64,000 bases of DNA, taken from Acidiferrobacter sp. Its GTDB lineage: Bacteria > Pseudomonadota > Gammaproteobacteria > Acidiferrobacterales > Acidiferrobacteraceae. Positions 2,179 through 17,330 of the stretch are shown here, in pieces (the first letter of the stretch is position 1; every line of letters begins with the position of its first letter). Location: positions 1-64,000 of the forward strand of contig DAIDMD010000122.1 in the NCBI GenBank assembly GCA_027449165.1, in the 5' to 3' direction. The notes beneath the pieces are model-generated. The model searched no databases, was not told where the DNA came from, and saw only the letters and a list, made by a program, of their open reading frames with translations. A program made the position numbers and the translations under genes.

Positions 2179-3305
2179 CTAGGCCGCGAGGGTCCGCGGC
2201 GGTTCCGAGACCTTGGGCCGATTGACTGCGGCCCTGGCCCGGGAACGGATGTTCCGGGCCGCGTTCACGTCGGCATGGTCTGTGTGTCCACAGGCCACGC
2301 AGCGGAACTCTGCTTGGGAGGGGCGGTTGGCCCGGTCGATGTGCCCGCAACCGGCACATTCCCGGCTGGTGTTGCGGGGGTCGACGATCTCCAGTCTCAC
2401 CCCGGCCCTTTGCGCTTTGTAGGCGACGTAGTGCCGGAGTTGATGGAAGGCCCAACCGCCCATCCTCGCCCGTTGTGCCTTGCGAAACCGTGTCCGGTCG
2501 CGGATGCCCTTTAAGTCTTCCAGGGCCAGTCCGCGCCCGGTGTCTTGGGCCTTGGCAACGAGCGATTTGGAGATCTGATGATTGATGTCTTTGCGAAAAC
2601 GGGCCTCCTGTCCGGAGAGCGTGCGCAGTTTGTGGCGAATGGCCTTAGGTCTGTATCCGCGGCGTTTACGCCCCGCCGCCGCCTTCTGCAGGAGGCATCT
2701 GTGGGTGTGGTGGCGGATGCGACAGGCCTCAAGGCCCTCTCCGCTGTGCCGGCCGCCATCGCTGTCGGTGGCGAGATTGACCACGCCCAGATCGACACCC
2801 AGAAAGTCGGTCGTTGGCGTCTTGGTGCCATCGGGCAGATCGACCGTCACCAGCAGGAACCATTTTCCGTCACGGCGGCGCACGAGGTCGCACTGGCCCT
2901 TGGCGGCGCTGAACCGCTCGGACTGGTAGGCGCCCATGATAAACGGCACGATGATCCGGCCCGAAAGCGTCAAGAGGCTCACCCGATCCATTCCCTTGAA
3001 GCTCATGAGGCGCAGGTCTAGGGCATGGCGGCGAAGGGACGGAAACGGGGCCGTTTCCCCTTGTCCCGTTTATAGGCCTCGCAGGTCTGGGCGATACACC
3101 GCACCGCCATCTGCGCCGAGAGATCAAACCGCGTACGCAGTTCCCGATAATAAAGCCTCTGCAAGAGGACCTTGTTGGCGGTCTTTCGGGCGAAGGCCTC
3201 GCCCGCCAGCCAATCCGCCGCCGCGTTGAAGGCCCGCATCGTGGCCTCCAACGCCGCCACCTGATCCGGTGCGGGCAGAAGGCGTGTTTGCAGGGCCCGC
3301 TTCAT
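2179..3305 (-). pseudogene. tnpB: tnpB (RNA-guided nuclease of IS200/IS605), single frameshift
   Basis: The N-terminal 95 residues (MKRALQTRLLPAPDQ...RFRPFAAMP) end at a TAG at 3020-3018. The rest of the protein continues in the next frame from DLRLMSFKGMDRVSLLTLSGR. TnpB proteins read through this point as ...AMP-(F/Y)-DLRLMSFKG, so one base appears to be missing from an aromatic codon (CCC TA- GAC). The remainder is intact: RuvC residues in FLGVDLGVVN, LALEDLKG and HADVNAARN, and a zinc ribbon CAGCGH...CVACGH. Apart from the shift the length (about 372 aa) is normal. The C-terminal 275 residues could be translated from the ATG at 3006, but without the N-terminal domain that product should not work as a nuclease. 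A sequencing error is the main alternative explanation. Confidence 0.85.
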
Positions 3306-3531: not shown

Positions 3532-4914
3532 CTAATGAGTCCACGGCTGGAGCATGAAGGTCTGGTACTCGACGGCCTCCATGTCACGGTCGAGCCAGAC
3601 GAGGCCCACGAGCACCGAGACGAGCGCCGATAGCGAGAAGCCGTATCCATAGAAGTAGAGGCCGAGATGGGTGCTTACGATGGAGAGCCCGAGATTTAGG
3701 CCGAGGAAGATCGCGGTCAAGTTGACCACGCGCGCCCGGCGGTCGAGATAGAAGAAGATGTTGAGGATACCCATGAGCGCCACCTGGAGGCCCGTGCCGA
3801 CCACATCGATCTTGAAGAGCGGGACATAGAGCAGGGATATCCCGAGGGCCCTGAGGACCGCGGGCCCGACGACGAAGGCCAGGACGGTGGTGAGCGACTG
3901 GACCTTGATGATGTCGAAGATCCCGGTCTTGGCGCTGGTCACCATGCCGTTGCGCATATTGCGGATATAGGAAAGGCTCGCGCCCTCGCGCACGCCTTCG
4001 TAGAAGCGGTCGTAGTATTCGACGAAATCGGTCTCGACGCGCATCAGGAACACGGCCATTCCGGGGATGATGGCGAGGTAGGCTAGAAAGATCGGGAGGT
4101 CGTATATGGCGGATGCGCGCAGCGGACCGATCACGTCCTGGCTCGTGCTCGGCGTGAACCAGAAGACGAACTTGTCGGCCCAGATCGCGGCGTTATAGAA
4201 AAACCCGCAGACCATGAGCGACCAGTACATGCGGCCGCGCTTCAAGAAATCGAAGGCCAGGAAGTCCCGCGAAGGGTAGTCGCGGTAGACGATGGCGAGC
4301 AGCCCCGCGAACAGCAGGCACTGCCCCAACAGAAAGGCGAGCAATAGACCCACGAGCCCATAGGGGCGCAGCAGCAGTCCGAGACCGAGCGCGGCCCCGT
4401 AGGCGGCGACGAAGCATGCCACGATGGCGCGATAGTGCTTGAGGCCGGTCAGCATCACCGCGACGACCCACACGCCGGTCAGGAGGGCGAAAAGTGCGGT
4501 CATGAGCAGCCGGTAGACGAGGCCCGTCCCCGCGAACAAATAGACCGAGGCGAGCGTGGCCAGCGCGAAGGCGCTCCCCATGGCCACGATCAGCAGACCG
4601 TTCAGGTTGGGCAGAATGCGATGGTGTTCCCGGGCGAAGGCCCGGTCGGCGACATAGCGCGTGAAGGCGAGCTGCCAGACGCCGCAAAAAATGAGGCTCG
4701 TCGCTATGAGGTACGTGACCGACGTCTGGAATTCGCTTATGAGGCGCGGTGGAAAGACGTGGTTTATGCTGAGAAAGCCCAGAAAGATGACCCCCAGTAT
4801 GGAGACGACCCACGGCCCCGCGCCGACGATGCCGGCATAGGAGTAGGCGCGGACGATACCGAGATAGTCGTTGTGGCGCATGAGCTTGCGAAGCTCGAAA
4901 CCTATGCCCGCCAT
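3532..4914 (-). CDS. pelG: PelG, Pel polysaccharide inner-membrane transporter subunit
   Basis: PelG is a polytopic inner-membrane protein related to the MOP (Wzx-like) flippases. With PelD, PelE and PelF it forms the synthase/export complex that moves Pel across the cytoplasmic membrane. At 460 aa it matches the family (about 456 in P. aeruginosa). The N-terminus MAGIGFELRKL is typical of PelG. About twelve hydrophobic segments follow, e.g. VSILGVIFLGFLSI and ILNIFFYLDRRARV. The start ATG at 4914 is preceded by GGGGGAG at good spacing. It is the last gene of the operon, 69 bases after pelF, the only sizeable gap between pel genes. The IS element lies immediately downstream. Confidence 0.95.
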   Translation of the reverse strand: MAGIGFELRKLMRHNDYLGIVRAYSYAGIVGAGPWVVSILGVIFLGFLSINHVFPPRLISEFQTSVTYLIATSLIFCGVWQLAFTRYVADRAFAREHHRILPNLNGLLIVAMGSAFALATLASVYLFAGTGLVYRLLMTALFALLTGVWVVAVMLTGLKHYRAIVACFVAAYGAALGLGLLLRPYGLVGLLLAFLLGQCLLFAGLLAIVYRDYPSRDFLAFDFLKRGRMYWSLMVCGFFYNAAIWADKFVFWFTPSTSQDVIGPLRASAIYDLPIFLAYLAIIPGMAVFLMRVETDFVEYYDRFYEGVREGASLSYIRNMRNGMVTSAKTGIFDIIKVQSLTTVLAFVVGPAVLRALGISLLYVPLFKIDVVGTGLQVALMGILNIFFYLDRRARVVNLTAIFLGLNLGLSIVSTHLGLYFYGYGFSLSALVSVLVGLVWLDRDMEAVEYQTFMLQPWTH

Positions 4915-4983
4915 GACCAGCTCCCCCGGTCGTCGTGGCGGCGGTGCGGCGCCCGCGCGGTCCGCAGACCCAAATGGCGCGTC

Positions 4984-6501
4984 TTAAGCATCGTAAGCCT
5001 CCTGATAGAGTTTCCGGTATTCTTGGAACATCAGGGTATCCGTGTAATAGGCCTCGACGCGGGCGATGGCCGCCGCCTGGGCGCTACGCCAGCGGGCCGG
5101 GTCGGTGAGCAGCGCGGTGGCGGCCTGGGCCAGCGCCTGCGGATCGGCGATTCCGATGATGTCTCCGGCGGACCCGAGGGCGTCGCCTTCGCCGCCGAAG
5201 ACCAGGCGGCGGCAGGCCCCTACATCGGTGCAGATCGCAGGCACACCCGCGGCGAAACCCTCGAGCAGCACCAACGGGAGCCCTTCGCTGATTGAACTCA
5301 AGATGAGCAGGTGGATCCTGGGCAGGATGTCGGTGACCGGCTGGAACCCCTTGAAGTGGACGTGCGCGGCGAGATCGAGGTTGTCCACGAGATTGCGGCA
5401 CTCGGCGGCATACACCGGGTCCTCGTCCTCGGGGCCCACGATCCAGCCCTGTGCGCCCGGGATTTCATCGAGAACCGCGGGCATGGCGCGGATAAAGGTC
5501 TTGATGTCCTTGATCGGCGTGACGCGGCCAAGCAGGCACAAGACCGGCGCGCCAAACGGCGGCTCGGGGCGCAGCGCGCGCAGGGCGGCGAACGGCTCGG
5601 TCGGCACGCCGTTGGGGATGATGAGGCTGCGTTGCTGGTCGGCGCCGTCGGCAATCTGCCGCTCCCGTGCCGCCGGGTACAAGGCCACGATCTTGTCCGC
5701 GGCGTCGTAGCAGGTTCGCCCCAGCGACTCGAAGAACGCGATCCAGAGTTCGCGGAGATAGCTGATTTCGCTCGGGTCGCGTTCCAGCCGGCTGCGGCGG
5801 TCGGCGACCCACGCGGCATTCAGGAGATCGATGCGGCGCTCCTTGGTGTAGATGCCGTGTTCGCTCAATATCAAAGGCCGTCCGGTGTGCCAGTGCAGGA
5901 GTGCGCCGAGCAGCCCGGCGTAGCCCGTGGAGACCGTATGATAGACGCGCGCCGGCGGCAGCTGGCGGGCAACGGCCGCAAGCCTCCAGATCGGCAGGTG
6001 CATGTTGCGTACCGTCCAGAAGTAATCGACGAACGAGGGATCGGTGCAGCGCTCCTCGTACGATTGGGTGATGTAATCCCAGCTGTCCTCGCCGTACAGG
6101 AATTCCGCGAGCGGGATTCCCCCGCCATCGTTGGCGTAGAAGGCGAGGTGGCGCAGAGGCTCCGGCAGGGACGGCCGTTCTTTGCGGCGGAGGGTCGTGT
6201 GGATGTCGCGCAGGCAGGCCGCGGTGCCGGGCGCGCGGCGCGGCGTCTCGGGCGGCGGCATGTCGTCCGGCGCGAAGAGGTAATGCGCCTCGAGATGCAC
6301 GAGGTTCTCCGGGAGCGTGTATTTCGGGTCGCCATAGTCCTCCGGGCGGCTCCCCAGGAACACGATTCCGAAGCGGTATTCCGGCATCCCTTGCATGATC
6401 TGGTTGACCCATGACGAGACGCCCCCGCTCACATACGGGAAGGTGCCTTCGAGCAGCAGCATGACATCGGCCGAGGCCGCCTTGGGAAACGCAATCGTCA
6501 T
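4984..6501 (-). CDS. pelF: PelF, cytosolic Pel glycosyltransferase (GT4)
   Basis: PelF is the soluble GT4-family glycosyltransferase that polymerises Pel, using UDP-GalNAc in known systems. The start ATG 6501 overlaps the pelE stop (ATGA). The ORF-track entry running to 7119 is over-extended. The length of 505 aa is close to the 507 of P. aeruginosa. Visible motifs are the donor-side N-terminal LLEGTFPYVSGGVSSWV, LSEHGIYTKER, and the C-terminal EX7E motif SEGLPLVLLEGFAAGVP of retaining GT-B enzymes, followed by CTDVGACR. No signal peptide or membrane helix is seen, consistent with a cytosolic enzyme recruited by PelE. Translation is probably coupled to pelE. Confidence 0.96.
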   Translation of the reverse strand: MTIAFPKAASADVMLLLEGTFPYVSGGVSSWVNQIMQGMPEYRFGIVFLGSRPEDYGDPKYTLPENLVHLEAHYLFAPDDMPPPETPRRAPGTAACLRDIHTTLRRKERPSLPEPLRHLAFYANDGGGIPLAEFLYGEDSWDYITQSYEERCTDPSFVDYFWTVRNMHLPIWRLAAVARQLPPARVYHTVSTGYAGLLGALLHWHTGRPLILSEHGIYTKERRIDLLNAAWVADRRSRLERDPSEISYLRELWIAFFESLGRTCYDAADKIVALYPAARERQIADGADQQRSLIIPNGVPTEPFAALRALRPEPPFGAPVLCLLGRVTPIKDIKTFIRAMPAVLDEIPGAQGWIVGPEDEDPVYAAECRNLVDNLDLAAHVHFKGFQPVTDILPRIHLLILSSISEGLPLVLLEGFAAGVPAICTDVGACRRLVFGGEGDALGSAGDIIGIADPQALAQAATALLTDPARWRSAQAAAIARVEAYYTDTLMFQEYRKLYQEAYDA

Positions 6502-7487
6502 GGGGTGGGACTCCAGAGCCGGATCACGGGTCCTATCGTGGGGAGGTCGAGTAGTGACGGAAAATCCCGCCCCAGATCCTTCAGGGCCGAATAATCTCCG
6601 AGCCGAAAGCGGGTCTCGGCGAGATAGGGGAGGACCTGTCCGGGTGCGGCGTTTAGATTCAGGGCGCGCTCGCAATGGGTGCGGGCGGCCAGATAATGGC
6701 CCTCGAGCATGGCGATGCGGCCCATAAGGACATGAAGGGTGGCATCCTCCGGGCGGCGCCCCAGGGCCGCCAGGGCATGGGTTTGCGCACGGCGGATCGC
6801 GTGCGCCCGCAGATGGTCGCGCGAGAGGTCCTGGTAGAGGAGTTCCCAGTACAGAAAGGCCAAGCGCTTTTCGAGCGCGCTGGCGTCGTCGTCTGGTCCC
6901 AGAGACCGTCGTTGCACCAGCGCCTCGTTGATGGCCTCCGCCAGATCCCCTTCGCGCTGATCGAGTAGCCCGTAGGCCAGCAGGCGCAGGTCCTCTTCGG
7001 GATGGCGCAAGGCGGCGCGCGCAAGCGGCGAGGTCTGGCGCGAGAGACGGGGGTCGAGGGCGAGTAGGGCGCGCACGCCGCGCGCGGTCCCCGCATCCTT
7101 GGCCCGTAATATCGCCCACGCGCCCCCGGCCCCCATGTGGCGCTGGCGCCCTCGCATCTCGGCGCCGAAGGCCGGCAGGCCCAAAGTCCGCGGCTCCAGC
7201 ACCGGCATGCGGCTGTTCAGCCGCGCGATGCCCAGGGCTACGAGGGCGGCGATCGGCAGCCCCAGGACCGGGACCGCGACGATGAGTGTCGCAAAGAGTC
7301 CGTATCCGTGCCTCCGGTAGGGGTCCGGCAGCAGGCGCGTCAAGGGGCCCGCCAGCAGCAGCGCCAGCACGCCGTTGCCGGCCACGATGAATAGAAACAG
7401 GGATCGCGGCGAAAGGCCCCGAAATGGGCGCGCGATGCCCGATAGCGAGGCGTGGGACAGGGCGTAGGACGCGAAATCAGGCGTCAT
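6498..7487 (-). CDS. pelE: PelE, TPR-containing inner-membrane scaffold
   Basis: PelE is a membrane-anchored TPR protein linking PelF to PelD/PelG. The length of 329 aa equals that of P. aeruginosa PelE. Two hydrophobic helices are visible at about residues 29-49 (LFLFIVAGNGVLALLLAG) and 63-88 (GLFATLIVAVPVLGLPIAALVALG). A helical TPR-like region follows from about 125 to 300 (e.g. ATLHVLMGRIAMLEGHYLAA). The start ATG 7487 lies 11 bases inside the end of pelD, and the stop overlaps the pelF start by 4 bases, so translation is coupled through pelD-E-F. Confidence 0.92.
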   Translation of the reverse strand: MTPDFASYALSHASLSGIARPFRGLSPRSLFLFIVAGNGVLALLLAGPLTRLLPDPYRRHGYGLFATLIVAVPVLGLPIAALVALGIARLNSRMPVLEPRTLGLPAFGAEMRGRQRHMGAGGAWAILRAKDAGTARGVRALLALDPRLSRQTSPLARAALRHPEEDLRLLAYGLLDQREGDLAEAINEALVQRRSLGPDDDASALEKRLAFLYWELLYQDLSRDHLRAHAIRRAQTHALAALGRRPEDATLHVLMGRIAMLEGHYLAARTHCERALNLNAAPGQVLPYLAETRFRLGDYSALKDLGRDFPSLLDLPTIGPVIRLWSPTP

Positions 7488-8799
7488 GGCTCGCCTCCGC
7501 CGCCGCGCTCAGCATCGGCAGGGCGTCGCCGCCCCCGATCGCGCGAATCGTTGTCGAATAGGTCTCGGGGCCGGGTTTTAGTCCAAACCGCTCCGCAAGC
7601 CGCGCCTTGACGCGGTCGATGTAACCCTCGGCCACAACCCGGTTGCTAAACGGCATGAGCGTGACGAGCCGGCACGCGTCGGGGCCCGTGATGCGCCAGT
7701 TGTCGTCGAGCCCGCGCGCAAGCGTCGCAAGGTCGTCTAGTATCTGGTCGCACGGAGCCGCTTTCGCGATCGCGATCGTGACGAGACTGCTTTGGAGATT
7801 GAGCTCGCGGGCGGCGCGCGCCAGCTTGACCGTTTCGGCCGCGAACCGCGGCGGACAGTGTGGCAGCGTCTTTAGAACATCTTGGGCGATGCGCGCGGCA
7901 TAGACGTCGTCTGCGAAGTAGGCCAGCAGAACGCTGATCGTAAGGAGGTTTTCGTCGTTCAGGAACAGGAACGGCATGGCCGCAACCACGAGTAGGCCCA
8001 GCATCGTCCCATCGGACGCCAGCAGGGGGGCTGCCACGAGGTAGGCGCTGTGCTCTCCGTCCTTGAGCGAGTTCACCGCCCAGTAGGCGGTCCGTCGCCT
8101 TTCGAGGCAGCGCGTGATCAGGATATCGTCGCGATCGAGATCGAAGGCCGCGCCGATGTGGGCGCAAGCCACCGGGTCGACGGCGTCTCCCGAGACCGCG
8201 TACAACGCCGCCTGCTCGAAGCCGCCATGGTAGGCGGTCAGGTGCAGCAATCGCGCGGCGACATCGCCCGCCAGTCCGTTGCCCTGGGTGACGAGCGCGC
8301 GCCGTAGTTCCAGAAGCGAATCGCGCAAGGTGACGGGTTTGCCGATGATGGTCTGCTCGAGGCGGTCGTGTGAGATCCGCGTCGTATGCAGCGTGCGCGT
8401 GAGCCCCTCGAGTTGTTGCGTGGCGTAGGTGCTCATCTGCTCTGAGCGGCGCAGGCGCAGGATCCACATGGAGCCGTATTCGCCGGACAGCAGCGTGAGC
8501 ATGATGCCGCCCAGGAATTGTTCTTGGGGAAGGCGATGGATATGTAGGGCCGGCAACCCGAGACGCGCGGCGACCAACGACAGGATCAAGACCGCCAGCG
8601 ACAAGACGGCCGGCGCCAGGCCGTAGCGCAGGGCCACCAGGACCGGGGCCAGCCACAGCCAGGGGAAGGTGGCGTCCACCAGAAACGGATCGTGCGGCCT
8701 TAGCGCAAAGGCGATCGCGATCGCGATGGCCGGGATCGCGATCGCTTCCGCCCAGGCCCGAGCTTGGGGAGACGGCGCGATATGATTGCGCAGGGTCAC
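7477..8799 (-). CDS. pelD: PelD, inner-membrane c-di-GMP receptor of the Pel synthase
   Basis: PelD activates Pel polymerisation when c-di-GMP binds its degenerate GGDEF domain. The start is GTG 8799, overlapping the pelC stop (GTGA); the ORF-track version to 9294 is over-extended. The length is 440 aa (455 in P. aeruginosa). Domains: four hydrophobic helices within about residues 15-115, a short coiled linker, a GAF domain (about 150-300) and a degenerate GGDEF domain (about 315-440) lacking a GGDEF motif. The inhibitory-site RxxD is present as RGLD at 362-365. An Arg at about 396 is spaced like the second c-di-GMP-binding Arg of P. aeruginosa PelD. c-di-GMP control therefore looks intact. 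The first helix is encoded by a GCGATC-repeat tract giving an Ala-Ile dipeptide run. Confidence 0.94.
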   Translation of the reverse strand: MTLRNHIAPSPQARAWAEAIAIPAIAIAIAFALRPHDPFLVDATFPWLWLAPVLVALRYGLAPAVLSLAVLILSLVAARLGLPALHIHRLPQEQFLGGIMLTLLSGEYGSMWILRLRRSEQMSTYATQQLEGLTRTLHTTRISHDRLEQTIIGKPVTLRDSLLELRRALVTQGNGLAGDVAARLLHLTAYHGGFEQAALYAVSGDAVDPVACAHIGAAFDLDRDDILITRCLERRRTAYWAVNSLKDGEHSAYLVAAPLLASDGTMLGLLVVAAMPFLFLNDENLLTISVLLAYFADDVYAARIAQDVLKTLPHCPPRFAAETVKLARAARELNLQSSLVTIAIAKAAPCDQILDDLATLARGLDDNWRITGPDACRLVTLMPFSNRVVAEGYIDRVKARLAERFGLKPGPETYSTTIRAIGGGDALPMLSAAAEASHDA

Positions 8800-9317
8800 G
8801 AGAGCAGCCTTTGGACCATGGCGTTCAAGGCGTTTTCGGCGAGCACGCCGACGCTCTCGCGGGGCGAACCGCTCCGGCTGGCGGTCGCCGTCCAGATGAT
8901 GCGCCCGCTGCGCACGCTCACGAGATTCATGGTGACGGCGACCGCCGGCTGTCCGTCCAGGCCTATGGTGTAGCGCCACTCCTGGACCGCGCCCTCGACG
9001 ATGTAGCGGGCGCCCATCGCCCGGGCCTTTCGGAGCAGGGTCGCGGGGTTGGGTTCGAGGCCGAGCGGCAGGCGGTTGCGGCGGCCGACGGCCATCGCGC
9101 TCGCGGTCTTGAGGCCGTGGGCCTGCAGGAGGCTTGCGGCCATGGACGCCGCGCGCGAGCCGGCCCCCGGGGTCGTCGTGTAGTTGGCGAATGGGGCGAC
9201 CGCGACCGCGGCGGTGCGCGCGAAGGGCACCGCGCGGCTGGCGTGGAGAGTGCTGTCCGCGCAGCCAGACAGCGTGATGCATATCGTAATGCAAGAGATG
9301 CGCTTTATCAGGGCCAT
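8796..9317 (-). CDS. pelC: PelC, outer-membrane lipoprotein of the Pel secretin
   Basis: PelC is a periplasm-facing lipoprotein forming a dodecameric ring below the PelB porin. The length of 173 aa matches the family (172). The signal peptide MALIKRISCITICITLSGC ends in the lipobox LSGC, giving Cys19 as the lipidated residue. The body has the expected alpha/beta fold pattern (VAVAPFANYT, GARYIVEGAVQEW, AENALNAMVQRLL). GGAGGGG precedes ATG 9317. It is 9 bases after the pelB C-terminal ORF and overlaps the start of pelD. Confidence 0.93.
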   Translation of the reverse strand: MALIKRISCITICITLSGCADSTLHASRAVPFARTAAVAVAPFANYTTTPGAGSRAASMAASLLQAHGLKTASAMAVGRRNRLPLGLEPNPATLLRKARAMGARYIVEGAVQEWRYTIGLDGQPAVAVTMNLVSVRSGRIIWTATASRSGSPRESVGVLAENALNAMVQRLLS

Positions 9318-9326
9318 GATCCCCTC

Positions 9327-12122
9327 CTAAGGTTTGAAGTAGTAGTCGTAGCGCAGGCCGATCGCCTGCAGGCGGTTGTCGATGCCGACACCCCCTTGGC
9401 TGCGCGTGTAGTAGACGGCCAAGTGGTCTGAGCCTATGAGCGGTGTTGCAACCCCGACGGAAATGTCGTAGCCGGCATGCGTGACGCTGTTGTCGAAGAC
9501 CTCCAGATCGAAAAACGGGCGCAGGCCCGGGGCGTAATGGCGCCGGTAGGTCTCCCCGAAGTGCATGTCGAGGCCCGCCTGGACATAGCTTTGCGGCACG
9601 AAAAAGCCGATCCCCGCACCGCCCGGGGGCAGGAGCGGTACGAGTACGGCCGGCACGGTGCCGGTCGCCCGGTAATGGGCGAACGACAAGGCCGCACCGA
9701 CCGTAAGATCGGGGTATGCCAGGCGGATCTTGTGGTCATAGTGAAAGTTTGCGATAAGGCCGGTTCCAAGGGCCCCGCCTCCCTGGGCGCTGAATCGGCG
9801 ATAGGAAAGCCGCCCGTTTATGGTGTCGCGTGCCGTCAGCGCCTGGGCGTCCATTATGCTCATGCCGTCTTTGACTCCCCCGAGGTACAGCGACGGAAGG
9901 TCGTAGGCGCGCATGTGGTAGTTCAGGCGTATCGTCTGCGTGGTGCGCGGCCAGAACGCCGTTGCCCAGCTTGCCTGGGCGTAGAGGAAGCGCGTCACGG
10001 CCGATCGGCGGCCCAGCGTCAGGCGGTAGGCGCCGGACGGACGCCATAGGCCGATCGCGAAGTGTTCAGACCGATCGAAGCGCGGGACGGCGCCGATGAG
10101 CGCCGGGTCGGTGCGGCCATCCAGACTGTTGCGGACCCCGGCCTCTATCTCGGTCCCGGGGTTTACCATGTGGCGCGTCGCGATGCCCTCGATCAGGGCA
10201 CTGAAGCCGGCACTCCGCAGGTATCGGATCCGGCCCGTCAGGCGGTCGGACTGGCGCAGCAAGAGCCGCCGGTATTCGTGGGCGAGCGGGGCGTCGGAGC
10301 GGCTCGCGCTCAGGCTCGCGAAGGCTTCCGATACGGCCCGGGCCGGTTCCCCGATCGCCGCGGCGGCGTCCACCCGGCCCGTCCGCGGAAGGGTGAGGCT
10401 GTGGCGGGCGAGCAGCGCGCGCAGCTGCATCCCGTTGTGGTCGCCCTGGGCTACGGCAAGGGCCGCCCATGGGGGCGCGTGGCGGGCATAGCCTTCCACC
10501 GCGTAGCCCGCGGGGGCGTAGGCGCTGCGTGCCAGTGCATAACCAAGCAGGATGTCGCGGCTTACCCCTCCTGGCCGTCCTTCGGCGCCCTGGGCAAGCA
10601 GCGCCATGGCGACCGGGGCGGTTGCCAGATCGATGGCCAGGGCGGCGCGCTTTCGGGCCTTGTGGCGTAGGTCGCCGGCCTGGGGCGCGAGGAGCGTGGC
10701 AAAGGCGCGTCGGCGCACAGATATTGCTGCGCCCGGGCGGCCGTCCTTGGCAAGGCTGTCGGCAAACGGCAACAACAGCCGCGGATCGTTCGGGTGGCGG
10801 CGCAGCAGGGCTTCCAGATAGGGAATCGCGAGGCGCGGCTCGTTTATGGTGAGGAAGGACAGGGCGTACGGGAGCCAGAGCGAGCGGTTGCGGTCGACGG
10901 TCGGCGCCCACGACAGCAAGGTGGCCGCGAGGCGCGGGGCGCGGCCCGTCGCCACGAAAAACCAGAGATAGGACCCAAGGATGGCGCCGTTGCCGGGAAA
11001 GCGCCGCAAGGCCTCGCGGTAGACGCGCTCGGCGTTCCGATAATGCCGTTGCACGGCCTGGCAGCGGGCGAGCCCGGTCCAATAGTAGGGGTTGGCGGTA
11101 AGCCGCCCGGCGTCACCGGCGGTGACTTGCGCGAAGGTCCGAACGAGCAGGGCGCGTGAGCGCAGCCGCTCGGCCAGGCTGAGCATGGCGAAAAAGAAGT
11201 TCGGGCTGTGGTAACGCCGGAAGCCTTCCAGGGCAAGCAGATACGATGTCCGCGGGTGCCGGCGTTCGCCGAGAAGTACGAGATGGGCGAGATCGGCGCG
11301 GGTCGCCGTGCCCCGCGCATAGAGGGCCTGGGCGGCCGAGAGCGCCGTCGGAAAGTCCTGGCGCATCCAGGCGAGCGCCCCCAACGTATGGTAATAGCTG
11401 AAGTGGCGCGTCGACACCGAGGCGGCGTGCCGGACCAGCAGCCGGTAGGCGCGGCCGGGGTGTCCGCTGCGGTAAAAGAGCGACGCCTCGGTCAGCAGAA
11501 CGCGGGCGGTGGCGCCGTACCGGTGATCGTAGGCGCGCAACGCGGCGAGCTCTTGCGTCTGCGCCCCGAGGCTGTTTTCCAGCGTTATGATAGACCAAAG
11601 GTAACGCCGGCGCGGGGTCTTGCGCATGGCCTGCTGGAGCCAGGCGATGGCCCGCCGGGGATGGCCTTGCAGTTGGTAGAGGCGGCTCATCTCCTCGACG
11701 AGGGCCGGTGCGCCCGGATGGCGTTTGAGGCGCAGGGCGAGCAGCTGGGTCAGGTGGGTGAAGGCCGACAGGCCGCTTGCCAAGGTCCATGCCGGCTTGA
11801 GGTAGGAGATCTGGCCGTGGCCTGCGAGATAGACGAGGGAGCGCAAGGCGACATGGTCATGCCCGGTCCACAACGCGGTCTTGGCGAGCCGCCGGCGCCA
11901 GGCGAGGTCGTGCGGGCGGTTTCCGACCGCCGTCAAGGCCACATCATAGGCCGCCTGCACGTCGCCGGAATTCAGGAATACCTTATAGGAAAGCGCGTAG
12001 TCGCGCCGATTATAGGGCGTTTGCGGAAGGGCCGGGGCGGCCGCGGCGAAGGCTACGGGCCACGGTCCCATCACGGCCGTCACGGCCGCGCCAAGGGCGA
12101 GGAATCGGCGTATGTTCACCAT
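9327..12122 (-). CDS. pelB: PelB C-terminal protein: periplasmic TPR scaffold plus outer-membrane porin, with its own signal peptide
   Basis: This is the large part of the Pel outer-membrane exporter, about 931 aa. The start is taken as ATG 12122, two bases after the upstream stop; the track uses TTG 12128. The N-terminus MVNIRRFLALGAAVTAVM...AFA-AA looks like a Sec signal peptide. Tandem TPR-like helices rich in Arg/His follow for about 580 residues. The C-terminal 300 or so residues have beta-barrel character: alternating aromatic strands such as LYAQASWATAFW and FDLEVFDNSVTHAGYDISVG, ending GLRYDYYFKP. In P. aeruginosa PelB is one 1193-aa chain beginning with a membrane anchor. Here the anchor and first TPRs are on the preceding ORF (286 + 931 = 1217 aa). 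The basic periplasmic composition suits an acidophile. Confidence 0.88.
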   Translation of the reverse strand: MVNIRRFLALGAAVTAVMGPWPVAFAAAAPALPQTPYNRRDYALSYKVFLNSGDVQAAYDVALTAVGNRPHDLAWRRRLAKTALWTGHDHVALRSLVYLAGHGQISYLKPAWTLASGLSAFTHLTQLLALRLKRHPGAPALVEEMSRLYQLQGHPRRAIAWLQQAMRKTPRRRYLWSIITLENSLGAQTQELAALRAYDHRYGATARVLLTEASLFYRSGHPGRAYRLLVRHAASVSTRHFSYYHTLGALAWMRQDFPTALSAAQALYARGTATRADLAHLVLLGERRHPRTSYLLALEGFRRYHSPNFFFAMLSLAERLRSRALLVRTFAQVTAGDAGRLTANPYYWTGLARCQAVQRHYRNAERVYREALRRFPGNGAILGSYLWFFVATGRAPRLAATLLSWAPTVDRNRSLWLPYALSFLTINEPRLAIPYLEALLRRHPNDPRLLLPFADSLAKDGRPGAAISVRRRAFATLLAPQAGDLRHKARKRAALAIDLATAPVAMALLAQGAEGRPGGVSRDILLGYALARSAYAPAGYAVEGYARHAPPWAALAVAQGDHNGMQLRALLARHSLTLPRTGRVDAAAAIGEPARAVSEAFASLSASRSDAPLAHEYRRLLLRQSDRLTGRIRYLRSAGFSALIEGIATRHMVNPGTEIEAGVRNSLDGRTDPALIGAVPRFDRSEHFAIGLWRPSGAYRLTLGRRSAVTRFLYAQASWATAFWPRTTQTIRLNYHMRAYDLPSLYLGGVKDGMSIMDAQALTARDTINGRLSYRRFSAQGGGALGTGLIANFHYDHKIRLAYPDLTVGAALSFAHYRATGTVPAVLVPLLPPGGAGIGFFVPQSYVQAGLDMHFGETYRRHYAPGLRPFFDLEVFDNSVTHAGYDISVGVATPLIGSDHLAVYYTRSQGGVGIDNRLQAIGLRYDYYFKP

Positions 12123-12124
12123 GG

Positions 12125-12985
12125 TCAAGGCATGCGCAGCAGTTGCTTGGCGTAGCGCGCCGCGACCGCGGGTTCATTCGCGGCGCGCGCCAGCGCGATC
12201 ATTCGTCGCAGGATGGCGGGCCGCCCCTCAAGGCCGCCGAGATGGCGGCCGCCCTCGCGGACTGCGAGCGCGACCTCATTGTGGCTTTGCAAGGCCTGCA
12301 TGGCCCCCAGGAAATAGCGGGCCGCCGCCGCGCGTGTCGGCGCGTAGTGTTCGGCCGAGAAATAGAGATGCGCCGCCAGCCGGGGGTGACCAAGGCCGTA
12401 GGCCGCGGCCGCCGCCAGCGCATAGTAGGCCGGGCGACGGGCATGGCCGCGCCGCGCCAGATCCCGGTAAATCGCGATCGCGGTTTTCTGATCATGGATG
12501 ACGACCGCCTCGCGCGCCAGACCGCGCAGCGCCCGTGGTCCGGCCCCCGGACGCAATTGGTCGATGAGCAGGCGTAGGGTATGGTCGTTATGCGAGCGCG
12601 CGGCGCTCCCTCTGGGATAGCGGTCGTTCATCGCGAGCAGGTCGCGATAGTAGAGCCAGCGGATGCGTTGCCGGGAGGCGCCGGCTTGGGTGCGGGCCAG
12701 CAGCGGCGCGAGGGCGCGCAGCGCGGCAATGTCGTGGCCGGTCTCGATCTCGCGGCGCACCAGCAAAAGCGTGATGGCCCGCCTGTGGTTGTCGCGGGCA
12801 AGGGCCTTCGCGAAATAGAGGCCGATCGCCGGTGTGCGCGACTCTTGGATCCGCCGCAAGAACGCCCCCGGGTTGAAGAGCAGCGCAAGTGTAAGCACGA
12901 TGCCGAGCGCAAGGCCCGCGACCAGGGTCGGGGGCGCAAGGCGTTCGCGCGCGCCGTCAGGGGCATGCAGCCGTGAAATGACCAT
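12125..12985 (-). CDS. pelB: PelB N-terminal protein: membrane-anchored TPR segment (split PelB)
   Basis: This is a 286-aa protein with one hydrophobic anchor at about residues 20-45 (TLVAGLALGIVLTLALLFNP) followed by TPR-like helices, e.g. YYALAAAAAYGLGHPRLAAHLYFSA. It sits between pelA and the PelB porin ORF, where full-length PelB begins in other species, and its architecture equals the start of PelB. The ATG at 12985 has GGAGGCGCACC just upstream. It overlaps the end of pelA by 29 bases and its stop is 2 bases from the next ATG. Since the downstream half carries its own signal peptide, this looks like a genuine two-subunit PelB and not a damaged gene. Assignment as PelB-N rests on position and architecture, not on alignment. 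Confidence 0.75.
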   Translation of the reverse strand: MVISRLHAPDGARERLAPPTLVAGLALGIVLTLALLFNPGAFLRRIQESRTPAIGLYFAKALARDNHRRAITLLLVRREIETGHDIAALRALAPLLARTQAGASRQRIRWLYYRDLLAMNDRYPRGSAARSHNDHTLRLLIDQLRPGAGPRALRGLAREAVVIHDQKTAIAIYRDLARRGHARRPAYYALAAAAAYGLGHPRLAAHLYFSAEHYAPTRAAAARYFLGAMQALQSHNEVALAVREGGRHLGGLEGRPAILRRMIALARAANEPAVAARYAKQLLRMP

Positions 12986-15770
12986 GGTGCGCCTCCAGGT
13001 GGTAGGTCATCAGGGATCCGTCGGGTCGTCCCCGAAGGACAAGGTCGCCGTCCATGACCCGGCAGCCGGCGGCATTCGCCAGCCGGAAGGAAAGCGGCGC
13101 GTTGCCCCGGAGGGCGAAGGAAAGGGCCGCCCCGTGGTAGGAGGCGGCGCGGATCGCGGCGTTGGCGTCGTGAAGAAAGGGCACGCGGGGGCGCATCGGC
13201 GTAAGCCGGATCCGTACCGTCTTTCCGGCGGGCACCGGGGCGATATGGATGTAGCGCACCGCGCCGTGGCGATCGAACCCCGCCAGGCCGCGGCTGCCGC
13301 GCAGCCGCGGGTAGCCAAGCCGCGCCGGGATGCGCCATTCCTGCGCGGCCCCGGCATCGCTTATGTACCAGCTGTGCGCGCCACGCGCGACCACCGCATG
13401 CCCGAAATCCACCGCGATGCGGGCGAAGTGGGATGGGAAGACCGGGTCCGTTCTTTGGCGAAGGGCCCAGGCGATCACGGTACGCAAGGCGCGCAGACCG
13501 GCGACCCGCGCCCCGGAATAGAAGTGATAGTAGATGTCGAGCGGCTTCAGGCGTCTGGGTGTGTCGGTCAGCTTGAAGGTCTGAATCGCCCGGACATAGC
13601 CGTAATAGTAGGGGCTCGTCCAACTGTGGGTGTAGACGTTCTCGTCTTGCATGGGCGAATAGACCTGGAAATGGCGGCCCTTGAAGATCCCGAGGCCGCG
13701 CACCTTCGTCACGAATGGCTCGGCGTAGGTCTCGGTGGCCCCGCCGCCGTTTAAGTTGAGGACGTGCGCGCGGTAGCTCAAGGCCAGCACACGGGCATCA
13801 GGATCGCAATCCCCGGACCATTGCACGAGCGAGACGCGCTTGCCGCGCGGGGCGATGTGGCGGTCTATCCACCGGTCGGCCCACACGATCTCCTTGCGGG
13901 CGCTGAATCGGGTGTAGCCGGGGACCGCCAACGCGTATCCGTAACGCAGGTTGCCCTTATGGCCCATGAGGCCGGGGTCGCGTTCCAGGGCCGGCCAGTC
14001 GAAGGGGTGGGAAAAGGTGTGGGATGCGACCTCGACCCATGGGAGGGCTGCGATCCGCCGCGCGATCGCCGTGAGCTTCGTGGCCGCCTTGGGGAACAGC
14101 CCATGGGGCGTGAAGTAGGAGACGATAAAGGATGCCGAGGTGGGGATGCGGTACTTCTCCAAGATCTGCTTCAAGATGACTGCGCCGGCGTACTGGTCCC
14201 GATAGCGGTAGATCCAGCTCTTATTGGCGAAGCCGTCGCCGTCGATCTGCGCCATGAGCATGCGCCGGCCGCTCTCGGTGGTGGTGTCCGGAACGGGCAT
14301 GGGCGGCAGGCGCAAGGCCTTGCGAAAGAACCGGAACGGGTTCAGGACCCATGCCGCCGGGGCCTTGCCTTTGCGGTGCGGCACCGCGCCAAGAGCGCTT
14401 ACGACGTCCGGCGACAGGGCGTAGCCGCCCCAGGGCGTAAGGCCGATCGCATCTTCGGTCTGCCCCTGCGCATCGCGCAGCGCAAGCAGCGTCCGGCCCT
14501 TGCGCAACGCGAGCGGCAGAAAATTGTCGGGCGCCGCCGGCACCGGGTGCGTCTCGAACCCGACGTAGCGCGGGTCGCTGAATGCCACGCGGTTTTGGAC
14601 CAAGCCGCGCGGGATGCGCCCGGCCGACAGGCCGAGCGCGCGCAGTTGTCCGGCGTCGGCTGGGAACCCGAAGCTCCCGAGCACCGCGACCGGCACCCCA
14701 TCGCGCATCTGGCGGCGCAGCCAGCGATAGAGCGCGGCGCCCTGCGTCACATGATTGTTCTCGAACCATGTGACGATACCCGCATAACGGCCGGCCAGGG
14801 TTCCGCGCGGCAGCCCGTCGGCCACGTTGCGGATGCGCGTGCTGTAGCCCAGATAATTCAGCGGCATCGCGGCATACCAGTTGAGCGACGTATGCTGAGC
14901 ATCCTCGGGTCCGCTGTAGAGCATGAGGATCTTGCGTGGCATGACGCGAATCGTACTGACGCCGAGCAGCGAGAGCCGGCCGTCGGCCACATACGGGGTA
15001 ATCCCCAAGGCGGCGATGCGCCGGGCGTCGGCGACCGCCTGCCGTCGCCGGCCGGGGGGGAGATAGTCGATGGCTATGACCGGCAGCCCCAGACGGCGAG
15101 CCCCGGCGAGCTTTTGCAACAAGGACCGGCGTGTCGCCGCCGCCACCTGCACATAGCGGCCGGTCCTTTGATCCCAGCCGTCGAACAAGGACTCGGCGGC
15201 GACCGCCGACACGAGCGTGCGAATGGCTGGCAGGATGGCAAATCCCCGATTGAGTATGAGCCGGGCCTCGGGGTGCGAGGCCTTGATCGCGCGGATCAGG
15301 CGGATGAGCCCCTGGCGTTGCCGGGCCCGGCCCGCCTTGGTCGCCACGGCCTGACGGTAGGCGTCGATGTCGTCGAGAAAAAACCCGCGATAGCCCCGGC
15401 GCCATAACGGCGCGAGCACATCGTGAAGGAAGTCCCGCCGACATGTCCGGCGCGCCTCGTCGAGGATGGCCGTACCCCAGGTCCGATCCTTTCCGAGCAC
15501 GCAGCGCGGCGGGATTCGCCGGTATTCGCCCGGCGAGGCCTCGCCGACGGCCGCGTAGGCGAACGCGCGCTCCCGGCCCTGGTCGAAGCGGCGCGGGGAG
15601 AAGGCCGAGTCCGGCTGAACCACCACCCAACGAAAGGCCTGCAGCGCGTGGCGCGGAGGGTGAGCGCCATAATAGAAGGCGATACTGAAGGGGCGCGCCT
15701 GAGCGGACAGCGCCAGCACGAACATCGCTGCGAGCGCGGCTAGGCCGAGTTTGAGGTCATGTAACCGCAT
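12957..15770 (-). CDS. pelA: PelA, periplasmic Pel hydrolase/deacetylase
   Basis: PelA partially deacetylates Pel and has an endo-glycosidase domain; it acts in the periplasm. The start is ATG 15770 (MRLHDLKLGLAALAAMFVL, signal peptide ending SAQA-RP); the track version to 15839 would begin inside the upstream hairpin. The length is 937 aa (948 in P. aeruginosa). The hydrolase domain (about 30-280) shows FFLDDIDAYR and AVAAESLFDGWDQRTG with candidate acidic residues. A reductase-like middle follows. The deacetylase domain has the metal-binding Asp in QIDGDGFANKSW and the HxxxH of ASHTFSHPFDW. The C-terminal part is beta-rich. It is the first gene of the operon, preceded by a structured leader and a near-consensus promoter. 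Confidence 0.95.
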   Translation of the reverse strand: MRLHDLKLGLAALAAMFVLALSAQARPFSIAFYYGAHPPRHALQAFRWVVVQPDSAFSPRRFDQGRERAFAYAAVGEASPGEYRRIPPRCVLGKDRTWGTAILDEARRTCRRDFLHDVLAPLWRRGYRGFFLDDIDAYRQAVATKAGRARQRQGLIRLIRAIKASHPEARLILNRGFAILPAIRTLVSAVAAESLFDGWDQRTGRYVQVAAATRRSLLQKLAGARRLGLPVIAIDYLPPGRRRQAVADARRIAALGITPYVADGRLSLLGVSTIRVMPRKILMLYSGPEDAQHTSLNWYAAMPLNYLGYSTRIRNVADGLPRGTLAGRYAGIVTWFENNHVTQGAALYRWLRRQMRDGVPVAVLGSFGFPADAGQLRALGLSAGRIPRGLVQNRVAFSDPRYVGFETHPVPAAPDNFLPLALRKGRTLLALRDAQGQTEDAIGLTPWGGYALSPDVVSALGAVPHRKGKAPAAWVLNPFRFFRKALRLPPMPVPDTTTESGRRMLMAQIDGDGFANKSWIYRYRDQYAGAVILKQILEKYRIPTSASFIVSYFTPHGLFPKAATKLTAIARRIAALPWVEVASHTFSHPFDWPALERDPGLMGHKGNLRYGYALAVPGYTRFSARKEIVWADRWIDRHIAPRGKRVSLVQWSGDCDPDARVLALSYRAHVLNLNGGGATETYAEPFVTKVRGLGIFKGRHFQVYSPMQDENVYTHSWTSPYYYGYVRAIQTFKLTDTPRRLKPLDIYYHFYSGARVAGLRALRTVIAWALRQRTDPVFPSHFARIAVDFGHAVVARGAHSWYISDAGAAQEWRIPARLGYPRLRGSRGLAGFDRHGAVRYIHIAPVPAGKTVRIRLTPMRPRVPFLHDANAAIRAASYHGAALSFALRGNAPLSFRLANAAGCRVMDGDLVLRGRPDGSLMTYHLEAHHGHFTAACP

Positions 15771-15795
15771 CAGGGTGTCGCCGCTGAGAAAACAC

Positions 15796-15827
15796 GATCC
15801 CTTCGCGGCCAGGGCCGCGAAGGGATC
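15796..15827 (-). promoter_or_regulatory. Perfect 15-bp terminator-like hairpin in the pelA leader
   Basis: GATCCCTTCGCGGCC and its exact reverse complement are separated by 2 bases. The repeat ends 26 bases before the pelA ATG. Read in the pelA direction it is followed by GTGTTTTCT, so it resembles an intrinsic terminator placed as an attenuator. It might instead sequester the ribosome-binding region or stabilise the operon mRNA. Confidence 0.75.
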
Positions 15828-15943
15828 ACCGAAGCCCAAACGGGACCGCCGCGCCGAACGTCCAAACCCCCGTTCTCGCGCGTCAGCCCGTTATGTCGGG
15901 CGCCATTTTCCGCGTGTTTCCCTGATGGTTATCACGAAAGCGC

Positions 15944-15963
15944 ACGGGCCTACCCCGGCCCGT
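15944..15963 (-). other. 7-bp hairpin in the pelA leader
   Basis: In the pelA transcript ACGGGCC and GGCCCGT pair perfectly around a 6-base loop. It lies midway between the promoter and the terminator-like hairpin, adding to the picture of a structured leader RNA. Confidence 0.5.
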
Positions 15964-15982
15964 TCTTTACTACGCCTCGGTT

Positions 15983-16048
15983 GTGTCTTGCGTCTGCGCG
16001 ATTATTATTTGCCTTTTAAATCCCGCCGAACCGCCGATGCCAAGACAC
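15983..16048 (-). other. Leader element closed by an 8-bp stem near the predicted pelA transcription start
   Basis: GTGTCTTG and CAAGACAC can pair across a 50-base AU-rich interior. The element begins within about ten bases of the predicted start site. This could be a leader RNA fold or, as DNA, part of an operator. No known riboswitch class could be fitted to it. Confidence 0.4.
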
Positions 16049-16060
16049 GCCCATGGGAAA

Positions 16061-16089
16061 ATTATAGGGCAGAGCCCTTGGCGTGTCCA
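16061..16089 (-). promoter_or_regulatory. pelA promoter, near-consensus sigma-70
   Basis: On the minus strand TGGACA (5/6 match to the -35) is followed after 17 bases by TATAAT (6/6). Half-sites GACACGCC (16044-16051) and GGCGTGTC (16080-16087) form an 8-bp inverted repeat flanking the -10 box. TGTCCGGG occurs twice at 10-base spacing (from 16113 and 16123, plus strand) further upstream. The predicted transcript starts near 16054, giving a leader of about 280 bases before pelA. Confidence 0.8.
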
Positions 16090-16145
16090 CCGTTCCGCGC
16101 AAATCGTCCGTTTGTCCGGGTGTGTCCGGGACGCCTCAGCTTATC

Positions 16146-17330
16146 CTATCGTGTCCGGATGAGTTCCGGTCCGGGCCGCGTGCCGAAGACGCCAAACGCG
16201 TCGAGCAACGCCTGGGGCGCGATGTCGCACAGGCATTCGGCGCGGCCGCCGTTGCCGCAGCCGTCGAGTTCGCAGGCCCGGCAGGAATGGTCGGTGGTGA
16301 CCAGGCGGTACCGTACCTGCCACGGATGGAATCGGCGTTCGTCTCCGGGGCCGAAGCAGGCGATCACCGGGACACCCATCGCCGCCGCGAGGTGCATGGG
16401 GCCGGAATCCGCCCCCACGAAGAGGCGCGACGCCTGGGCGAGGGCGGCAAGCTCGGCGAGCGTGACGGCGCCGGCGAGATTGTGGACGCGGCCGCCTCGA
16501 TCCTGGCACAGGGACTGGGCGAAGGCCTGCTGCCAGGCGTCGCGGCCGCTTATGATGACGACGTGTTCGCCCTGGTCCTCGCAATGGTCGAGAAAGTCCC
16601 GGCAGAGGGCGCCATCCAAGGTTCGGCTCCGTTGGCCGGCGAGCGGCGCGAACAGCACGAAGCCTCCGCGGGGGATCCCGCGCGCGGCGAGCAGGGAGGC
16701 GATGCGCGCGCTGGCCGCGGCTCCGGGTTCGATGACGGCGTGTCGCGCCTGTGGGCGCGGGCTGAGACCGAGGCGCCGCAAGAGGTCGAGATGGATCTCG
16801 GCCGCGTGGCGGGGGGTTTGGTGGGCGTGGGGCGGCGGCAGGGTATGGGTAAAGAGCCGCCGCCAGAAAAAGCGTTTGAGGGGGGAGCCGTGCATCGCTG
16901 CCGAAGCGCCCACGGCATAGGGGATACGGAGCAGGGCGATGAGCGCCGGTCCCCAGGAGCCGTCGGTGGTGTGGGGCGACTGGATGAGCAGATCGTAGCC
17001 GCGCCGGCGCAAGGTCCGGATCAAGGCCCGGCGCCGGCCGGCGGTGCGTAGAAGCCCCTTCCGGCGCCAGTCGGCGTCTATGGCGTGGACCGCCGCTATT
17101 GCCGGGTTATGGCAGAAGAGATCGATTAGCGATTGGTGCGCCATGACGTCGATCCGGCAGTCCGGAATCAAGTCCTTCAACGCGGTGATGAGCACCGACG
17201 AGAGCACGGCGTCCCCGAGCAGCTGCGGCGCGATGATAAGCACCCGTCGCAGGCAGGCCGCGGGGACGGCATCGCGGGGCGCGGATAAGTTGCCGCAGGC
17301 CCCGCAAGCCGGGTCGTGCCCTCGTGTCAT
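16146..17330 (-). CDS. Glycosyltransferase family 9 (heptosyltransferase-like)
   Basis: This is a cytoplasmic-face GT9 enzyme of the ADP-heptose:LPS heptosyltransferase superfamily, 394 aa. The start is ATG 17330, overlapping the stop of the upstream sulfotransferase-like gene (TGATG); the track ORF to 17861 is over-extended. The N-terminal donor-fold motif is RVLIIAPQLLGDAVLSSVLI. The GT9 signature near residue 310 is GADSGPMHLAAAMGVPVIA followed by CFGP. The N-terminus carries CGACG and the C-terminus HSCRACELDGCGNGG with CLC, an unusual Cys-rich tail that might bind metal. The acceptor is unknown: LPS core, or a decoration of the neighbouring exopolysaccharide. Its stop is about 60 bases upstream of the pelA promoter, so some read-through into pel is possible. 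Confidence 0.85.
   Translation of the reverse strand: MTRGHDPACGACGNLSAPRDAVPAACLRRVLIIAPQLLGDAVLSSVLITALKDLIPDCRIDVMAHQSLIDLFCHNPAIAAVHAIDADWRRKGLLRTAGRRRALIRTLRRRGYDLLIQSPHTTDGSWGPALIALLRIPYAVGASAAMHGSPLKRFFWRRLFTHTLPPPHAHQTPRHAAEIHLDLLRRLGLSPRPQARHAVIEPGAAASARIASLLAARGIPRGGFVLFAPLAGQRSRTLDGALCRDFLDHCEDQGEHVVIISGRDAWQQAFAQSLCQDRGGRVHNLAGAVTLAELAALAQASRLFVGADSGPMHLAAAMGVPVIACFGPGDERRFHPWQVRYRLVTTDHSCRACELDGCGNGGRAECLCDIAPQALLDAFGVFGTRPGPELIRTR

Follow-up and report, generated by a model that had tools for sequence, protein, structure and literature searches.

Few biofilm polysaccharides have been studied as thoroughly as Pel, which is known to be controlled by the transcription factor FleQ and by the enzyme-level switch PelD, both of them linked to c-di-GMP; we know of no dedicated leader RNA acting on pel. 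The window analyzed here, a stretch of 64,000 nucleotides from Acidiferrobacter sp., carries a pel operon on its minus strand whose first gene, pelA, follows a long leader, raising the question of whether this operon is also controlled through its RNA and, if so, at which step. An initial annotation had proposed attenuation or riboswitch-type control, with a terminator-like hairpin just ahead of pelA as the deciding element. Targeted searches of the open-access literature turned up no leader RNA for pel. Coordinates of the features discussed below are collected in Table 1.

Table 1. Features of the pelA leader and pel operon in the window (all on the minus strand)
Feature	Position	Strand	Evidence
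pelA promoter TGGACA-N17-TATAAT	16061..16089	-	11/12 consensus matches
5' domain closed by stem P1, GTGTCTTG (16041-16048) with CAAGACAC (15983-15990); inner hairpin sequence variable	15983..16048	-	inverted repeat and covariation
Conserved RNA core, 76 nt, 54 invariant columns in seven genomes	15910..15985	-	alignment and covariance model R1
Hairpin P3, lower stem 15972-15977 with 15938-15943, upper stem 15957-15963 with 15944-15950, loop GGGGTA	15938..15977	-	R1 helix cells
P4, CGTG (15933-15936) with CGCG (15911-15914), loop holding CATCAGGG; alternative to K2	15911..15936	-	96% of cells paired
Small hairpin P5, GCCCG-N6-CGGGC	15886..15901	-	89% of cells paired, register shifts in L006
Anti-start arm CATCAGGG (5' arm of putative helix K); CATCAGG invariant in seven genomes	15920..15927	-	alignment, inverted repeat
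Start-codon region CCCTGATG (3' arm of putative helix K); CCTGATG invariant in seven genomes	15768..15775	-	alignment
GTTAC in pelA codons 2-4 (3' arm of putative K2); partner CGTGAT 15931-15936	15761..15765	-	
Perfect 15-bp terminator-like hairpin of this genome	15796..15827	-	exceptional only here
TTTT of TTTTC, kept 20-24 nt before the ATG in 7/7 genomes	15789..15792	-	
pelA (GH114-type hydrolase and deacetylase), first gene of the pel operon	12957..15770	-	
Remaining operon: orf286, pelB, pelC, pelD, pelE, pelF, pelG	3532..12985	-	PelB_C match, PelF equivalog; others by position and orthologs

Among 96 related genomes, pelA orthologs were identified at 73-84% identity within the genus, together with one in the family at 42% and one in the class at 37%. 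The upstream regions of all seven Acidiferrobacter-like genomes having pelA with its leader were aligned. The promoter described in the initial annotation, of which one match was seen against 0.3 expected, is retained throughout: all seven genomes have an N17-spaced TRGACA and a TA-rich -10, always 6 nt from a conserved ATGGGCG. Two further elements had been assigned to this control region. The sequence TGTCCGGG does occur twice at one-turn spacing (16113-16130, 10 bp apart), and nine times in the window against about four expected, and an 8-bp inverted repeat (GACACGCC/GGCGTGTC) does flank the -10, but neither is conserved in the alignment of the six relatives, and we rejected both as operators. 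The -10 palindrome is the -35 hexamer matching a strand of P1 by chance.

The leader, annotated at about 280 nt, measures 284-298 nt in the seven genomes and is conserved in all of them. In the window its predicted fold was more stable than that of all 100 dinucleotide shuffles (z -4.1). Pairwise identity is 0.76-0.95 over a core of about 76 nt, compared with about 0.4-0.6 in the leader flanks. The 8-bp stem proposed to close the 5' end of the leader is present and proved to be conserved and covarying: with the arms aligned by hand, 41 of the 42 pair cells of P1 (GUGUCUUG with CAAGACAC in the window) are kept across the seven genomes, and three of its six pairs show double compensatory changes. 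Shuffles equalled P1 in 1.7% of cases for pairing and in 5.7% for double changes. A 7-bp leader hairpin, also annotated, exists in the window as the CGGGCC hairpin. Within the core, the cells of P3 are 92-98% paired with one compensatory change (GC to AU) and several one-sided ones, covariation support for P3 being weak because it is nearly invariant. The fold energy of the core alone lies only slightly below that of shuffles in most genomes, and the case for structure therefore rests on P1, the fold of the window leader and the pattern of conservation. An alternative pairing of the 3' end of the core with a 5' GGGCAC fits only three genomes, whereas P1 fits all of them.

To place the core among known RNA families, leaders were compared with Rfam 15, and no match at the gathering score was obtained, to GEMM (RF01051) or to any other family; at E values up to 5, only chance matches to unrelated families appeared in the leaders, with no c-di-GMP-II among them. 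A covariance model built on the core (R1) found one strong copy per pelA genome, solely before pelA and on the sense strand, in seven of the seven genomes with the leader on the contig, and no comparable second copy elsewhere in those genomes. Beyond the genus, R1 detected no copy in the order (57 genomes), class (369) or phylum (399), the class and phylum scans having been run with stricter filters. PelB scored over the family cut-off in 17 genomes of the class sample, 15 of which are outside the genus, and since R1 found no copy in these 15 pel-positive genomes, pel operons do not in general carry the leader. Weak R1 matches elsewhere in the genus (18-20 bits) do not contain the core sequence and were taken as chance; sequences of other places in the genus that differ from AACCATCAGGGAAAC by one mismatch were likewise taken as coincidences, with the rest of the core missing and their surroundings differently conserved.

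Two genus members without pelA and pelG, G002 and G011, retain a decaying copy of the core, a natural relic on which constraint is relaxed. The G002 copy lies downstream of a heptosyltransferase gene, the same gene that precedes pel in the window; it has lost the -35, and 6 of the 54 otherwise invariant core positions are changed, compared with 0-2 of 54 in functional copies when each was left out and set against the other six. Retention of the core thus appears to depend on retention of pel. Loss of pel in G002 (L035/L042) and G011 (L036/L043) has left the 5' domain and core beside a CheB/CheR-like fusion gene. A role as the leader of this next gene was rejected for a relic that has no -35 and is altered at invariant positions, and the same features, with the strict tie to pelA, led us to reject an independent small RNA. 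The leader is, very probably, a real cis-acting RNA element dedicated to pel and absent from Rfam. The original proposal that a structured leader controls pelA at the RNA level is supported by the 76-nt core with its 54 invariant positions, the covarying 5' stem kept in all seven relatives, the linkage to pelA and a core segment matching the pelA start, the anti-start arm.

In the window, G005 and G009, a 286-aa protein (12125-12985 of the window, minus strand), with no Pfam match and a probable N-terminal membrane segment, is encoded between pelA and the gene for a PelB of 933 aa, and may be the split-off N-terminal part of PelB. In G009 the operon is broken inside pelB on contig C2 (L068 and L069; 164000-181000 and 737000-754000): pelA, orf286 and the 5' part of pelB are at 174-180 kb on the minus strand, with the leader intact, and the 3' part of pelB with pelC-pelG occupies the plus strand at 737-743 kb, an arrangement that a 560-kb inversion would produce. 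Just past pelG, the window encodes a protein resembling a TnpB-type (IS605-family) transposase accessory (2179-3006, minus strand). In G014, a more distant family member whose pelA leader does not contain the core, pelA is immediately preceded by a same-strand GGDEF (diguanylate cyclase) gene (L010, 4840-5604).

The anti-start arm suggests what the leader may do. Its CAUCAGG is complementary to CCUGAUG, which is the AUG of pelA plus the four preceding bases; the ribosome-binding region around CCUGAUG varies among the seven genomes, whereas CCUGAUG itself is invariant. Predicted pairing energies between the core segment and the pelA start of the same genome are -14 to -22 kcal/mol, compared with a mean near -9 for the 114 other ATGs of the window, only 1-4 of which pair with the segment as well. 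The segment is the best or tied start-pairing stretch of the whole leader in five of the seven genomes; in L007 and L008, two other stretches of the leader pair more strongly with the start. The predicted pair probability of this helix, K, exceeds 0.8 in four of the seven genomes and is 0.2-0.5 in the window, L006 and L008. Beside the anti-start arm, a second helix, K2, could form between CGUGA(C/U) and the GUUAC of pelA codons 2-4; K2 is broken or altered in L007 and L008. Codon 3 of pelA is the rare TTA (14 of 649 leucine codons) in five of the seven genomes (L002-L006), and in L007 GUUA recurs 1 nt later in another frame, as would be expected of a constraint on the RNA. P4 and K2 are mutually exclusive because the CGUG strand is common to both. 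In minimum-energy folds, the long-range helix is favored over a forced P4 by 4-9 kcal/mol in L003, L004, L005 and L007, and the two are near balance in the window, L006 and L008. Across these predictions, K is favored in four to five genomes. Helix K shows no covariation because both of its arms are invariant, which is the main gap in the sequestration argument; the comparison behind K and K2 comprises seven sequences from one genus, and K leaves many invariant core positions (AACC, GGGAAACAC) unexplained.

We favor, with moderate confidence and from sequence analysis, a leader that acts in cis by sequestering the pelA start codon, which folding of the core or binding of a signal would release. 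Transcription would start near 16054, and the first parts to fold would be the 5' domain with P1 and the core with P3 and P4. In the OFF state, CGUGAU-AAC-CAUCAGG would leave P4 and pair with CCUGAUG-N2-GUUAC, burying the start of pelA in K and K2. In the ON state, a signal, whether a small molecule, a protein or temperature, would hold P4 (CGUG with CACG) and the remaining core together, so that the long-range helix would lose a strand and the start codon would be free. The control point would come after transcription has begun, most likely at translation initiation.

This arrangement has to be weighed against the hairpin on which the original proposal turned. Transcription attenuation would have the core, as an aptamer or protein site, decide the formation of a terminator hairpin before the start, possibly alongside sequestration. 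The perfect 15-bp hairpin followed by GTGTTTTCT is indeed present in the window, 25 nt before the ATG at 15770, and none of 100 dinucleotide shuffles gave as good a hairpin; TTTTC stands at -20 to -24 in all seven genomes with some stem adjoining, and in most genomes inspection shows that CCGRGGC of P3 can pair with GCYYCG, immediately ahead of the hairpin, one change being compensated. The stem, however, beats shuffles only in the window genome. In the six relatives, 23-43 of 100 dinucleotide shuffles folded as well as the 50 nt leading up to the T run, the core by contrast being strongly conserved, and the T run has only four to five U and could be an A/U-rich stand-by site for the ribosome. 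Comparison therefore does not support attenuation by the 15-bp terminator, and attenuation in any form is a possibility that we hold doubtful. The hairpin sequence has a single copy in the 2.08-Mb draft genome and, being unique, is not a dispersed repeat of the REP or MITE kind. To have made the hairpin the center of control was probably wrong, and the anatomy of the leader points to control of translation initiation at least as much as of termination; a ligand or protein may act on the leader, as also proposed.

A CsrA/RsmA switch, in which the start would be opened or blocked by CsrA bound to two GGA motifs of P4 (CAGGGA and CACGGA, 10 nt apart), is a serious rival because CsrA is encoded in every genome (18 of 18) and GGA is invariant at both sites, one of them, CAGGGA, overlapping the anti-start arm. 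CAGGGA occurs in seven of seven leaders and CACGGA in six, the second site being CGCGGA in the window itself. There is a precedent in P. aeruginosa psl, another biofilm polysaccharide operon, whose long 5' UTR is repressed by RsmA and has an anti-SD, a segment complementary to the initiation region beside a GGA (PMC2984543). Unlike the pel leader, psl has its anti-SD adjacent and no conserved 76-nt core, and RsmA binding is demonstrated for psl and a candidate only here; on P. aeruginosa pel, RsmA acts indirectly through vfr and fleQ (PMC7705225). Moreover, GGA is frequent, with 3-8 copies per leader, none overlaps the SD, and a near-invariant 76-nt core with P3 is not needed for CsrA, so that we rate this switch as rather unlikely. 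Processive antitermination of the long operon, by an RNA of the EAR type or by recruitment of RfaH or LoaP, would also fit a structured leader before a 12-kb exopolysaccharide operon with a terminator possibly next, as in the Bacillus eps operon with its eps-associated RNA (EAR). Unlike those systems, the pel leader has an arm matching the start codon; it matches no Rfam family, EAR-type included, and has no ops element. At most one NusG is encoded per genome, with no RfaH or LoaP paralog, including in the single-contig G005 and four-contig G009, which argues against the RfaH/LoaP type and makes antitermination very improbable. Were the region instead a DNA-level control element, for example a FleQ operator downstream of the promoter, the RNA folds would be incidental; pel is a classic FleQ target in Pseudomonas, and the very high conservation of some 20 nt (AACCATCAGGGAAACACACGG) could reflect a protein site, but the compensatory changes in P1 and P3 and the complementarity to the start codon are signatures of RNA, and we regard this as improbable. 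Coupling of pelA to a leader peptide or upstream ORF by a TGATG overlap is hardly credible: UGAUG does stand at the start codon in all seven genomes, but in L007 and L008 the frame that ends with this TGA is already closed 3-4 codons earlier, and there are no other conserved ORFs. A TIRETHGK-like frame was rejected as a leader peptide, its second codon positions being variable and the frame lost in L005, L006 and the window.

More tentatively, the core may be the aptamer of a new riboswitch class gating translation of pel, and possibly its transcription, plausibly in response to c-di-GMP or a Pel precursor; this extension, read from the sequence, we rate as rather unlikely. The pel leader resembles translational riboswitches, which combine an aptamer with sequestration of the RBS or start and include c-di-GMP-I (GEMM, RF01051) and c-di-GMP-II, in its near-invariant 5' core, its c-di-GMP-linked biofilm operon and a strand common to the core fold and the putative start-covering helix. 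Unlike c-di-GMP-I and c-di-GMP-II, it matches no Rfam family at an E of 5 beyond chance, and it further differs from translational riboswitches in having one target gene in one genus and a putative long-range pairing with the start (about 150 nt). No c-di-GMP riboswitch had been found in Acidithiobacillus (PMC5852609). The operon is the same as that under FleQ and c-di-GMP in Pseudomonas and as the c-di-GMP-linked pel of Acidithiobacillus (PMC5852609), with a gene in the position of pelD; unlike the mechanism proposed here, FleQ/c-di-GMP control is transcriptional or by a protein effector.

If correct, start-codon sequestration by a leader shared across the genus would give the control of pel an additional RNA layer and establish an orphan RNA family whose single target is clear, and for which identification of the ligand or protein would be directly testable with a 180-nt transcript. 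Should the core prove to be a riboswitch, it would place an RNA sensor on an operon whose control has so far been attributed to FleQ and PelD. In either case the element would bear on the control of biofilm formation in mineral-dwelling acidophiles.
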